64,000 nt of DNA from contig CP007053.1 in the NCBI GenBank assembly GCA_000242935.3, forward strand, positions 5,627,001 to 5,691,000, read 5' to 3'. This stretch comes from Opitutaceae bacterium TAV5. Its GTDB lineage: Bacteria; Verrucomicrobiota; Verrucomicrobiia; Opitutales; Opitutaceae. The notes under the pieces are model-generated. The model was not told where the DNA came from, did no database searches, and worked only from the letters and a program-made list of their open reading frames with translations. Shown here piece by piece: positions 50,335-55,017 of this stretch; position 1 is the stretch's first letter; each line of letters starts with the position of its first letter. The translations under genes and the position numbers were made by a program.

Positions 50335-51534
50335 TCAGCGGTTTTTCCCGTCGAGTTGATGGCCGTGCTGCACGCGGGGAACTCCTTTGGCGGCGTTGAG
50401 TTGATCGAGAACGGTCGCGAGTTTGCGCCGCTTTTCGTCGGTGCGGGCAAACATCTCCAGTTGCACCGCGCCGTCTTCGACGCCGGAAAGTTTCACGCTC
50501 ACGAGGCGCAGGGGGCGGCGCTGCATCCAGGCCTGGCGGAGCAGGGGAGCGACGAGCGGATAAAAGGTCGTTTCAAGATCGTCGGGGGTGGGCAGGGTGC
50601 GAGCGACGGAGCGTTGGGTGAAATCGCCGTAGCGCACCTTGACCGTGAGCGTGCGCACCCGTTTGCCGTCGGCGCGAATGGCCGGCATGAGCTCGTCGAT
50701 CATCCCCTTGGCCACGCGTTCGATGGTGGCAAAATCGCCCACATCGCTCGGAAAAGTTTCCTGTTTCGAATAACTCTTTGCATCGTCGTGTTCCGTTTCC
50801 ACGGGGCGGTCGTCCTCGCCGCGGGCGGCGGCCAGCAGGTCGGGCCAGCCGTGGCCGAGGATGGTCTGGAGCTCGCGTTCACCGGATTCGCCGCGCGCGA
50901 GGCATCGCCGGGCGAGATCGGTGATGTCGCTGACCAGGCGCAGGCCGCGCGCGTGCAGCGCTTCTTCGGTCTTGTCGCCGACGCCGGGCAACTTGCCGAC
51001 CGGCAACGGGGCGAGGAACGCCGTCTCTTCGCCCGGCGGTACCACGACGAAGCCGCGGGGTTTGCGGAGCTTCGAGGCGATTTGCGAGACGAGCCGGTTG
51101 GTGGCGATGCCCATCGAAACGGGAATCTGCAATTCGTGCCAGATGCGTTGCTGCAAGGCGCGGATGGCCTCCTCGATTTGTGGCACGGTCTTGAAGCCGC
51201 ACATGGTCACGTCGAGATAACCTTCGTCGATGGAGTTGCGCTGCACGATCGGGGTGAGTTGTTCGCAAAGATCGAACATCCGGCGGGACACGCCGCCGTA
51301 GCTGCCCTTGTGCGGCAGCAGGATGAGATCGGGGCAGATTTTCAGCGCGCGGGCGGTGGGCATCGGCGTGTAGACGCCACAGGCGCGCGCCTCGTAGCTG
51401 GCGGAGGCGATGATGCCGCGTTCACGTCCGCCGACAGCTACCTTCTTGCCGCGATATTCCGGCTGCAGCGCCAGCTCGACCGACACGAAAAACGCGTCGG
51501 CGTCGAGGTGGACGATGGTCGGGAGCGGTCGCAT
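50335..51534 (-). CDS. dinB: DNA polymerase IV (Y-family)
   Basis: 399-aa translesion DNA polymerase. Catalytic carboxylates are in place: IVHLDADAFFVSVE (Asp11) and SIDEGYLDVT (Asp103-Glu104). Gly replaces the usual Ala after SIDE, a small deviation. The thumb HhH region is visible (KLPGVGDKTEEALHARGLRL), and the C-terminus has QLEMF, a good beta-clamp-binding motif. The C-terminal ~35 residues continue with a basic tail. Located between the aldo/keto reductase and the MFS gene on the same strand. No LexA-type box was recognised upstream. Confidence 0.95.
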   Translation of the reverse strand: MRPLPTIVHLDADAFFVSVELALQPEYRGKKVAVGGRERGIIASASYEARACGVYTPMPTARALKICPDLILLPHKGSYGGVSRRMFDLCEQLTPIVQRNSIDEGYLDVTMCGFKTVPQIEEAIRALQQRIWHELQIPVSMGIATNRLVSQIASKLRKPRGFVVVPPGEETAFLAPLPVGKLPGVGDKTEEALHARGLRLVSDITDLARRCLARGESGERELQTILGHGWPDLLAAARGEDDRPVETEHDDAKSYSKQETFPSDVGDFATIERVAKGMIDELMPAIRADGKRVRTLTVKVRYGDFTQRSVARTLPTPDDLETTFYPLVAPLLRQAWMQRRPLRLVSVKLSGVEDGAVQLEMFARTDEKRRKLATVLDQLNAAKGVPRVQHGHQLDGKNR

Positions 51535-51643: not shown

Positions 51644-52873
51644 TCAGCGCCGGGCGCGGATGCCTTTTTCCACGTCGGGCAGGAAACCCGTGACGAGGCC
51701 GATCAGCGGCAGCCACGCGCAGACGTGGAAAACGGCATCGATGCCCTTGTAATCGGCGAGCGTCCCCAGCGCGGCCGAGCCGATGCCGGCGATGCCGAAC
51801 GCGAAACCGAAAAACACGCCGGCGATCATGCCGACGCGGCCCGGGATCAGTTCCTGCGCGTACACGAGGATGGCCGAGAATGCCGACGCGAGGATGAACC
51901 CGATGATGACCGTGAACACGACCACCCAGGCCAGCCCGAGATGCGGCAGCGCCAGCGTGAACGGCGCCACGCCGAGGATCGAGACCCAGATGACGCCCTT
52001 GCGTCCGAAGCGGTCACCGATCGGCCCGCCCACGATCGTCCCCGCCGCGACCGCGAACAGGAAGACGAACAGGCACACCTGCGAAGCCTGCAGCGACACG
52101 CCGAACTTGTGGATCAGGTAAAACGTGTAGTAGTTGGTCAGGCTGACGAGGTAGATGTATTTCGAAAAAATCAGCCCGCCCAGAATGGCCAGCGCCAGCA
52201 CCACCTGGTTTTTCGGCAGGCGCAGCGCGGTGGCGGCGGCATCCGTCACGCCGACGGCGGTGGATGAGGTGCGCAGCGTGATCAGCAGACGCTCCCGGTA
52301 CCAGCCACCGACGCGGGCCAGCACGATGATCGCAGCCAGTGCGAGCACGGTGAACCAGAGCGTGTGCGGCAACCCTCGCGGGATGATCACTGCGGCCGCC
52401 AGCAGCGGCCCGAGCGAGGAACCGAAGTTGCCGCCGACCTGGAAAATCGACTGCGCCAGCCCGTGTTTGCCGCCCGAGGCCAGCCGGGCGACCCGCGAGG
52501 CTTCCGGATGAAACACCGACGAGCCCATGCCGACCAGCGCGGCCGCCATGATGAGCATCCCGAATCCGTGCGCCAGGCCGAGCAACACCAGCCCGACGAG
52601 CGTCAGGCTCATGCCGACGGCGAGCGAGTACGGCATCGGATGCCGGTCGGTGAAGCTGCCGACAAACGGCTGCAGGATCGAGGCCGTGAGCTGGTTGGTC
52701 AGCGTGATGAGGCCGATCTGGCGGAAGCTGAGGTCGAAGTTGGCCTTCAGCAACGGATAGATCGCCGGCACGATGGCCTGCAGGGTGTCGTTGAGCATGT
52801 GGGAGACGCTGAGCGCGACGAGCACGCCCATGACCGTGCTGTTTGCGCGGTGAGTCGTCCGGGATGTAGTCAT
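51644..52873 (-). CDS. MFS transporter, fosmidomycin-resistance (Fsr) family
   Basis: 409-aa 12-helix exporter. The early signature VSHMLNDTLQAIVPAIYPLL followed by LSFRQIGLITLTNQLTASIL and QPFVGSFTDRHPMPYSLAVG is characteristic of Fsr-like MFS proteins. The MFS loop motif appears as GGPIGDRFGRKGVIW between the halves. The start at 52873 (MTTSRTTHRANSTVMG) was chosen; the longer frame upstream runs through the leader attenuator. The gene sits behind a Val-rich leader peptide and terminator/antiterminator, so its expression seems tied to charged tRNA-Val, hinting at export of a branched-chain amino acid or a related compound rather than only drug efflux. Confidence 0.9.
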   Translation of the reverse strand: MTTSRTTHRANSTVMGVLVALSVSHMLNDTLQAIVPAIYPLLKANFDLSFRQIGLITLTNQLTASILQPFVGSFTDRHPMPYSLAVGMSLTLVGLVLLGLAHGFGMLIMAAALVGMGSSVFHPEASRVARLASGGKHGLAQSIFQVGGNFGSSLGPLLAAAVIIPRGLPHTLWFTVLALAAIIVLARVGGWYRERLLITLRTSSTAVGVTDAAATALRLPKNQVVLALAILGGLIFSKYIYLVSLTNYYTFYLIHKFGVSLQASQVCLFVFLFAVAAGTIVGGPIGDRFGRKGVIWVSILGVAPFTLALPHLGLAWVVVFTVIIGFILASAFSAILVYAQELIPGRVGMIAGVFFGFAFGIAGIGSAALGTLADYKGIDAVFHVCAWLPLIGLVTGFLPDVEKGIRARR

Positions 52874-52942: not shown

Positions 52943-52984
52943 CCACAAAAAGAAGCCCTCTCCGGCAAGGAACCGGAGAGGGCG
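52943..52984 (-). terminator. Attenuator terminator upstream of the MFS gene
   Basis: On the minus strand the 11-bp stem GCCCTCTCCGG (52983-52973) pairs with CCGGAGAGGGC (52965-52955), 7-nt loop TTCCTTG, followed by TTCTTTTTGTGG. It lies about 70 bp before the MFS start. The 5' arm can alternatively pair with CCGGAGGCG (53015-53007) just after the leader-peptide stop, with a 2-nt bulge, forming an antiterminator. Confidence 0.85.
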
Positions 52985-53015
52985 AAAATCGGATTCTTGT
53001 TCAATGCGCCTCCGG

Positions 53016-53099
53016 TCAGTTCGAAACGACAGCAACAACAACTACGTCCACGAGGCAGACGGAGAGATTGGCGTGAATCGGAAGACCGGCGAAATGCAT
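53016..53099 (-). CDS. Valine-rich leader peptide
   Basis: 27-codon ORF beginning MHFAGLPIHANLSVCL and ending VDVVVVAVVSN. Seven of nine consecutive codons near the end are Val (GTG GAC GTA GTT GTT GTT GCT GTC GTT). The stop TGA abuts the antiterminator arm CCGGAGGCG, and a Rho-independent terminator follows 30 nt later. This is the classic geometry of amino-acid leader peptides such as those of ilv operons: stalling at Val codons leaves the antiterminator arm free, while reaching the stop masks it and lets the terminator form. The controlled gene is the Fsr-like MFS transporter. Confidence 0.75.
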   Translation of the reverse strand: MHFAGLPIHANLSVCLVDVVVVAVVSN

Positions 53100-53427
53100 G
53101 GAACGGAAAAAGGAGGCGGAATGGGTGGCCCAAACCTTTTCGGCTGTCAAGCGGGCAGCTTTTGGCGGCACGCCACGAGGAGCGGTTTCACGGTTCTGAC
53201 TTGCAGAGGTTATTTTTGAACAGAAGGAAACAGAGAGAATAGAGATTTTTCGACCTTTCCAGTGGTGATCGTTCCGCCTCGCGCGCTCGTGCCCCCTGAC
53301 AAGACAGAAAAGATTATGCGGCGGCGCAGAGCAGCGGAACTTTCAGACCTTTTTTACACGAAGGACACAGAGCGGCGCAGCCGCAACCGAAGTGGAGGGA
53401 CGCCGCGCTTTGTGGCAGGGTCCGGGT
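53100..53427. other. Intergenic region before the hypothetical gene
   Basis: Contains the probable promoter region of the leader/MFS transcript (minus-strand TTGACA at 53150-53145 without a good -10) and the left arm of the outer inverted repeat (53214-53232). Near 53350-53391 it also has the phrase TTTACACGAAGGACACAGAG followed by GCCGCAACCGAAG, dispersed-repeat material. No gene. Confidence 0.5.
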
Positions 53428-55017
53428 GTGAAAACAAATAACCAGACATCCACCAGCGGGCACGGCGTCCCGGAGGCCTTTGTTAACAAATTTGGCGGGC
53501 AGATCACAGGGATACTTTGCGGATTTGACCGTGTGAGGTTCCGGGCGACGCTGAGGCTGCTGTTTCAGCCGTCGGCGATGGAAGCGTACCTGCAGGCGTG
53601 CGGGGTGCTGATCAAGCACTTCAAGCCCTTTGCCGAGAAGATCACGCAGCGCATCCGGCAGGCGGCGTGGGCGGCGGCGGAGGCGGCCGGGCGGCCGGTG
53701 CGCTACCTGGGTTGCGCGCAGCAATCGAAGGAGGAGCTTGCCCGGCAGATTGCGCGGGAGGAGGGGATTGCCAGCGGGCTGATCGCGGTGTTCAGCGCGG
53801 TCGAGCCGTGCCTGTCCTACGCGGTGCGCGGCGAGCGCGAGAGCAGGGAGATCCACCTGGTGCTGGAGAACCGCAAATGCACGCACCTGTATCACTATTA
53901 CCAGCACCCCGGTTTCGGCCTGATCCACGTGCGGGTGCAGACCTGGTTTCCGTTCAACGTGGAGGTGTGCCTGAACGGGCGCGAGTGGCTGGCCCGGCAG
54001 ATGGACCGCGCGGGACTGGACTACGAGCAGCGCGACAACTGTTTTGCCCGGGTGAGCGATCCGGTGCGCGCGCAGGCGCTGCTCGACGAACAGTTGAAGA
54101 CCGACTGGCCCCGGGTGCTCGACGGGTTGCTCGAGCAGGCCCATCCCCTGCACGCCGAACTGGGCCGCCCGCTCGGGCAGCGCTATTACTGGAGCGCCAG
54201 CCAGACCGAGTTTGCCACCGATGTGATGTTCCGCGACGCGGCCAGCCTGGCCGGGTGGTATCCGCAGTTCCTGCACCACGGCATCCGCAGCTTTGGCAGT
54301 GCCGACGTGCTGCGCTTCCTCGGGGCGGCCTGCCCCGACAAGTTCCGCGGAGAAGTCACCTCCACGCTCAGGCGCCGGCCCGAAGGGGTGCGGCTCAAGC
54401 ATGTGGTCAACGGCAACTCGCTGAAGGTTTACGACAAGCAGGGCAGCGTGCTGCGGGTGGAGACGACCATCGTCAATCCGCACCCTTTCCGGGTCTACCG
54501 GCCCAGCGAAACAGATCCGCAGCAGCAACCGGCATGGAGGTACCTGCGGCGGGGCGTGGCCGACCTGTGGCGGCGGGCCGAGGTCAGCCGCGCGGCCAAC
54601 GGCCGCTATCTGGGCGCCCTGGCCAGCGTCACCGGCAAAACCCCGCTCGCCCAGGAAGCCCGGCCGGTGTGCCGGGCACGCACCGTGGACCGGCAGCGTT
54701 ACCGGGCTCTCAACCCGTGGGCTCCCGCCGATGGCGCCTTGCTGGAAGCCATCAGCCGCGGCGAGTTTGCCCTCAACGGCCTGCGCAACCGCGATCTGCG
54801 CGCCTTGCTGTATCCGCCCGCCTCCACGGCCGCCGACACAAAACGCCAGGCCGCCGCAGTCACCCGCCAGCTCGCCCTGCTCCGCGCCCATGGCCTGCTC
54901 AAAAAAGTCTCCGGCACCCACCGCTGGCTGCTCACCGACCACGGCCGCAGGATCGTCACCGCTCTCCTCGCCGCCCATCAGGCCGATGTCGATCAACTCA
55001 CAAAACTCGCCGCATAA
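53428..55017 (+). CDS. Conserved hypothetical protein with C-terminal winged-helix-like domain, mobile-element-like setting
   Basis: About 529 aa from the GTG at 53428; an alternative GTG at 53392 adds 12 residues. I recognise the style of a widespread uncharacterised family (VNKFGGQITGILCGFDRVRF, HLYHYYQHPGFGLIHVRVQT, WFPFNVEVCLNGREWLARQM) but no assigned function. A segment LKHVVNGNSLKVYDKQGSVL, RVETTIVNP recalls replication-initiator-like proteins, which is only a resemblance. The last ~65 residues (QAAAVTRQLALLRAHGLLKK, VSGTHRWLLTDHGRRIVTAL) look like a winged helix. No transposase DDE motif was identified. Nested inverted repeats flank it and its direction opposes all neighbours. Confidence 0.8.
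   Translation: MKTNNQTSTSGHGVPEAFVNKFGGQITGILCGFDRVRFRATLRLLFQPSAMEAYLQACGVLIKHFKPFAEKITQRIRQAAWAAAEAAGRPVRYLGCAQQSKEELARQIAREEGIASGLIAVFSAVEPCLSYAVRGERESREIHLVLENRKCTHLYHYYQHPGFGLIHVRVQTWFPFNVEVCLNGREWLARQMDRAGLDYEQRDNCFARVSDPVRAQALLDEQLKTDWPRVLDGLLEQAHPLHAELGRPLGQRYYWSASQTEFATDVMFRDAASLAGWYPQFLHHGIRSFGSADVLRFLGAACPDKFRGEVTSTLRRRPEGVRLKHVVNGNSLKVYDKQGSVLRVETTIVNPHPFRVYRPSETDPQQQPAWRYLRRGVADLWRRAEVSRAANGRYLGALASVTGKTPLAQEARPVCRARTVDRQRYRALNPWAPADGALLEAISRGEFALNGLRNRDLRALLYPPASTAADTKRQAAAVTRQLALLRAHGLLKKVSGTHRWLLTDHGRRIVTALLAAHQADVDQLTKLAA

Follow-up and report, generated by a model that had tools for sequence, protein, structure and literature searches.

A predicted valine attenuator of an Opitutaceae leader family in front of an fsr-type transporter gene

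A short open reading frame with codons for branched-chain amino acids, followed by a terminator, is the arrangement of the ilvB leaders of Escherichia coli (ivbL) and of Actinobacteria. The same arrangement is present on the minus strand of the DNA analysed here (64,000 nucleotides of Opitutaceae bacterium TAV5, hereafter the window), but here the target is an fsr-type transporter gene and the phylum is Verrucomicrobiota; the likeness is one of arrangement. The locus raises the question of whether the element is an attenuator, where it came from, and what valine control of such a transporter would mean.

The leader peptide ORF (MHFAGLPIHANLSVCLVDVVVVAVVSN, 27 codons plus a stop, 53016..53099, minus strand, as are all parts of the unit) was recognised as an open reading frame and by its in-frame alignment with the leaders of relatives. 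It contains at 53051-53025 the run VDVVVVAVV, that is, seven Val in nine codons, and lies exactly where the initial annotation had placed it. Segment 2 (CCGGAGGCG, 53007..53015) abuts the TGA of the leader and aligns with CCGCGAGGG of the relatives, and a second TGA, at the site of the family's usual leader stop, follows in frame behind the earlier one (53001..53003). Segment 3 (GCCCTCTCCGGT, 52972..52983) and segment 4 (GCCGGAGAGGGC, 52955..52966) are the 5' and 3' arms of a terminator hairpin, GCCCTCTCCGGT-TCCTT-GCCGGAGAGGGC (52983-52955), with 12 pairs and a helix of -25.7 kcal/mol; the T-rich tract TTCTTTTTGT (52945..52954) lies directly 3' of the hairpin, and the ATG of the MFS gene, at 52873, is 71 nt beyond it. 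The succession described earlier (a stop adjoining one arm, then a hairpin, a T-rich tract and an MFS gene about 70 bp on) is thus present in full. A segment 1 (CCGGTC, 53084..53089) belongs to the predicted ribosome-free fold only, in which it pairs with segment 2. The Val-codon run pattern of the leader occurs three times in the 7.4-Mb genome, versus 12 times for a reversed control pattern.

Upstream of the leader, a possible -35 element, TTGACA (53145..53150, minus strand), can be read in the sequence; no good -10 was seen there, a consensus scan gave no sigma-70-type promoter, and no clear Shine-Dalgarno sequence was seen on reading the region before the ORF. In 13 of the 17 ilvB leaders covered by this count (the hairpin rule used misses that of G055), TTGAC precedes the hairpin by 145-169 nt, as it does in the fsr leaders of the window's genome (G000) and of G232, but not in that of G235. 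The nearest long upstream ORF, of 541 codons (53392-55017, plus strand) and with no Pfam or NCBIfam match, is divergent from the leader unit, so that there is no evident upstream gene for the hairpin to end. Between them, at 53300-53212 (minus strand), are pieces repeated elsewhere in the genome, one with 91% identity over 55 bases at G000:C1:4731300 and another, of 26-28 bases, at several sites.

The gene that follows the unit (51644..52873, minus strand, 409 codons) was correctly described as that of an Fsr-like MFS transporter, given its Pfam MFS_1 domain and its similarity to E. coli fsr. Its DNA has matches in 5372 of 5426 E. coli genomes, and the five matches listed are all to fsr, with 65.7-65.8% identity over 87% of the query; the gene after the attenuator is therefore an fsr homologue and not a branched-chain biosynthesis gene. 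Downstream of it, at 50335-51534 (minus strand), lies a DNA polymerase IV-type gene (Pfam IMS, IMS_HHH and IMS_C). Among 126 fsr loci tested, with a reach of 1.5-3 kb, this polymerase gene and the upstream ORF were each found in the window alone. In the only genome of the same genus compared, G001, glyS is 186 nt from fsr, versus 4.49 Mb in G000.

The affiliation of the unit emerged from R1, a covariance model made from 13 leaders of the second-type acetolactate synthase gene (ilvB) of this and other genomes of the family, and from no fsr leader; the five ilvB leaders out of 18 that were left out of it (those of G019, G008, G012, G039 and G055) score 18.6-36.1 bits. R1 matched the window element at full length (52945..53057, minus strand) with 64.1 bits and an E value of 1.1e-14, the other hits in the window being the same hairpin on the opposite strand (19.0 bits) and, as the next unrelated one, a hit of 10.9 bits. 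Among the candidates scored across the genome, the window element was outranked only by the ilvB leader of the same genome (94.4 bits), and the third reached 25.4 bits. Genome-wide counts obtained with R1 are lower bounds, since only the best first-look candidates were scored, namely 66 per genome in the ranking run and 15 per genome in the run over 252 genomes. Recruitment of an ilv-type leader by another gene is thus supported, the element having been found by an fsr-free model and its target being an fsr homologue.

Other comparisons point the same way. A DNA search with the leader rendered, besides dispersed repeats, hairpin matches in G010 (E 1.9e-5) and G013 (E 5e-5), located 64 and 76 nt, respectively, before matches to acetolactate synthase. 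A Val-rich leader ORF, such as MNLSRGNSIDALARSIVAIVVVVVVVHGTPRGV, was found upstream of all 18 second-type acetolactate synthase (ilvB) genes (L170-L187), and was absent from both first-type upstream regions read. Recent duplication of the ilvB leader of this genome was discarded as the source, the letters being too different. A search for close relatives of the peptide gave five weak hits (E 0.03-2.8), judged on reading to be due to chance; among such matches, one in G012 (L055:1501-1572, plus strand) ends in VFHFVV and is followed, after some hundreds of bases, by an ORF of panB-like appearance by eye.

An alignment of 49 matches in 48 chosen loci (A3) showed how the window unit differs from its relatives. 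The terminator helix is 98.3% paired in A3, with a covariation score above those of all 500 shuffles, figures that are favoured by the alignment having been fitted to the same helix; in the window it carries a compensated U-A pair in place of the C-G found in 47 of the 49 rows. Typical leaders, read in frame, end in SVTRAPRGA and a stop, and the window sequence reads VDVVVVAVVSN-stop-PEAH-stop, so that its stop is five codons before the usual one. Because of the homology, we regard the window leader as a variant of the ilvB-type family despite this earlier stop. Segment 2 is at the same distance as in the ilvB leaders, and in the window it pairs in a shifted register. Early in-frame stops are present in three of the 49 rows, which are the fsr-linked ones of G000, G232 and G235. 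Two further rows are out of frame by indels (L174, an ilvB leader, and L353, the fsr leader of G239), and the G239 leader, when translated by eye starting at GTG, also comes to an early stop (CCG TGA); that of G232 has lost the usual stop (AGA). Early stops being confined to fsr-linked rows, together with G239 by eye, the fsr-linked leaders are shortened. The window unit therefore shares with the second-type ilvB leaders of Opitutaceae the R1 match, the in-frame alignment, the terminator and the distance of segment 2, and departs from them in its earlier stop, its register and its control of fsr.

In the folding of the leader, the computational check proposed at the outset, the 181-nt leader has a more stable predicted fold than 200 out of 200 dinucleotide shuffles (z -4.4). 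Segment 3 can pair either with segment 2 (9 pairs, -15.8 kcal/mol) or with segment 4 (-25.7 kcal/mol). In the computed ribosome-free state, segment 2 pairs with leader codons 4-6 (leader fold of -30.0 kcal/mol) instead of with segment 3, which is left for the terminator (-25.7 kcal/mol). With the decoding site on the Val codons at 53051-53030, and with the RNA behind the ribosome removed as in all the stall folds, segments 2 and 3 form 9 pairs (-13.2 to -15.8 kcal/mol), and with the ribosome at the last Val codon or beyond, segment 2 is partly covered. As modelled, these folds correspond to the three conformations of a classical attenuator. The two stems are candidates for mutually exclusive pairing: both were computed, but by itself the 2:3 pairing exceeds chance only to a moderate degree, since 29 of 1000 shuffles do as well; in the same test 12 of 17 ilvB leaders had 50 or fewer such shuffles, and the fsr leaders of G232 and G235 had 66 and 201. 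Because the RNA behind the ribosome was removed, the same 9 pairs are obtained with the ribosome stalled anywhere between the start codon and 53030, on Val codons or not, so the dependence on valine rests on the codons and not on the fold.

From the sequence, the window unit is likely to function as an attenuator, and we favour with fair confidence the reading that it attenuates transcription by way of the translating ribosome, belongs to the Opitutaceae valine family (ilvB and related leaders) and has been recruited by an fsr-type MFS gene. Points that speak against this reading are the lack of the unit at most fsr genes (see below), the shuffles that equal the 2:3 pairing, the same pairing on stalls away from Val codons, the want of a good -10 or Shine-Dalgarno sequence and the early stop. 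Transcription would start upstream of the leader. When charged Val-tRNA is short, a ribosome would pause at 53051-53030 and leave segment 2 free to pair with segment 3, no terminator would form and fsr would be read; when valine is plentiful, the ribosome would reach the stop, cover segment 2 and allow the terminator; and in the case of no translation, segments 1 and 2 would pair, again leaving the terminator to form. The RNA switch would thus probably sense valine shortage and turn the transporter on when valine is short, a mechanism and a direction that we infer. A warning for inference from sequence comes from Streptomyces coelicolor, one of the Actinobacteria for which ilvB leaders have been described, where, in the portion of PMC1262725 consulted, mutation of the candidate codons of the ilvB leader had no effect.

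The arrangement is rare at fsr. Among 252 genomes of the family, 117 have an fsr match (E <= 1e-90). R1 was run on 118 fsr upstream regions, three of which hold less than 300 nt, corresponding to 116 of those 117 genomes plus G014 and G051; the 117th, G263, with a partial match, was left out of the count. The unit was found in four of the 116, those of G000 (64.1 bits), G232 (67.0 bits), G235 (60.5 bits) and G239 (43.4 bits), at 72, 98, 95 and 86 nt, respectively, from the fsr match, and there was no R1 match in the other 112, the genome of the same genus included. Of these four, a simple hairpin scan of the 118 regions picked up only G000 and G232. Judged by the condition for refutation set at the outset, the leader is therefore not conserved at fsr, and an ancestral fsr attenuator is unsupported; conservation of the leader in relatives is found instead at other genes, ilvB and those of the second class described below. 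In 80 named fsr loci, reaching outside the phylum, R1 matched only those of G232, G235 and G239 (L138, L140 and L141), which belong to one genus, separate from that of the window. A tree of 45 fsr proteins, of which four have the unit, requires a minimum of two changes on account of its well-supported branches.

Such rarity would also be expected of a relic, that is, of an attenuator from an ilvB or class-2 operon that came to lie before fsr by rearrangement, with a constitutive or leaky start and no useful valine control. The surroundings of fsr, which differ from those in the relative, the shortened leader and the dispersed repeats that flank the unit upstream agree with this view as well. 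Nevertheless, neither the Val run, nor the stem with its compensated pair, nor the alternative pairing has decayed, and in two lineages fsr has come to stand behind such a unit, so that we consider a relic unlikely.

Over the family, R1 gave at least 146 matches in at least 139 of the 252 genomes (E <= 1e-6). Thirteen strong matches of the ranking run are at neither second-type ilvB nor fsr, and define a second class in which the unit precedes, in most of those read, a short ORF of about 62-82 codons with an HDFLxLNPRPDL- or HDMLxLNxHPDL-like motif (L346:357-563, plus strand, and L320, L325, L339, L340, L343, L345, L348, L351 and L356); the one short ORF tested matched no Pfam family at E 0.1. 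In five genomes (G035, G007, G028, G235 and G232) the next feature is a class I/II PLP aminotransferase, whose scores fall short of the cut-offs in the NCBIfam rows shown, and in G005, an exception, the next ORF starts, by eye only, like an ACT-domain protein. Leaders of this class mix Val and Ser, as in MNLRNTTLSSKALAHASVVAISIVSVTNAPRGA of G235, a genome in which the units before the aminotransferase (81.8 bits) and before fsr (60.5 bits) are on one strand, about 7.3 kb apart. Of the 75 genomes with both an fsr and an R1 match, five (G017, G028, G080, G085 and G235) have a class-2 unit upstream of fsr, on its strand and at a distance of 5.0-7.5 kb. Only G028 and G235 among them have the aminotransferase close by, and G000 and G001 are without it too, so that an origin by deletion next to the aminotransferase is unproven for the window.

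In a scan of an 8-kb part of the window and seven loci, no Rfam family reached its gathering score, and rows such as HepC_CRE and anti-hemB, being far below theirs, were rejected. A leader of this kind in Opitutaceae was not found in the literature searched, which has few subscription journals, and the attenuator family was thus found in neither that literature nor, for the loci scanned, Rfam. The consulted part of PMC2965389 places leader-peptide systems in Proteobacteria and Actinobacteria, to which its own result adds Firmicutes; the word Verrucomicrobia is absent from that text.

It could also be that the leader senses a drug acting on the ribosome, and not valine, as at mef(E)/mel, where, in the part of PMC4335068 consulted, efflux is controlled by a leader through transcription attenuation. 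Fsr belongs to an efflux family, the mef(E)/mel leader likewise precedes an MFS-type efflux gene, and a further precedent, a ribosome-controlled ABC transporter, is reported in the available part of PMC4191407. However, mef(E)/mel senses macrolide-stalled ribosomes by means of an 8-codon arrest peptide, MTASMRLR (PMC4335068, same part), unlike the window leader, which has a run of amino-acid codons and belongs with its Val codons to the ilvB family, and we regard drug sensing as very unlikely. Fsr of Sinorhizobium meliloti is, according to the abstract of PMC12095868, a proton-dependent efflux pump induced by fosfomycin; that abstract has no mention of leader control, and the likeness to the window gene is one of Fsr-type name. 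A plain 5' terminator or a chance hairpin beside a low-complexity GTT run can be practically dismissed, for even if the run is trinucleotide-like and terminator-like sites are not rare in the region (two found by a simple scan, versus 1.1 expected from shuffles), the full-length R1 match and the in-frame alignment to ilvB leaders remove chance as an explanation.

If the recruited attenuator works as proposed, the rise of fsr with uncharged Val-tRNA would fit a role in taking up valine or a precursor, or in expelling an agent that starves the cell of valine. Valine export would fit poorly, because the attenuator turns the gene on when Val-tRNA is uncharged; the proposal of Val-controlled export of a metabolite is accordingly the weaker half of the initial interpretation, the logic of the attenuator being opposite to the need of a valine exporter. 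A rather improbable, more specific version is that the pump naturally exports a compound that inhibits valine synthesis, which would be the reason for it to be under a valine-starvation sensor, the poison being detected by its metabolic effect, in an arrangement that arose in two lineages. The inhibitor could be, for instance, a hydroxamate or a phosphonate directed at ketol-acid reductoisomerase, which is similar in its chemistry to the target of fosmidomycin. The joining of a valine attenuator to a gene of the drug-efflux type in two lineages would tie valine supply to a transporter, and the natural role of Fsr may thus be approached through its regulation.
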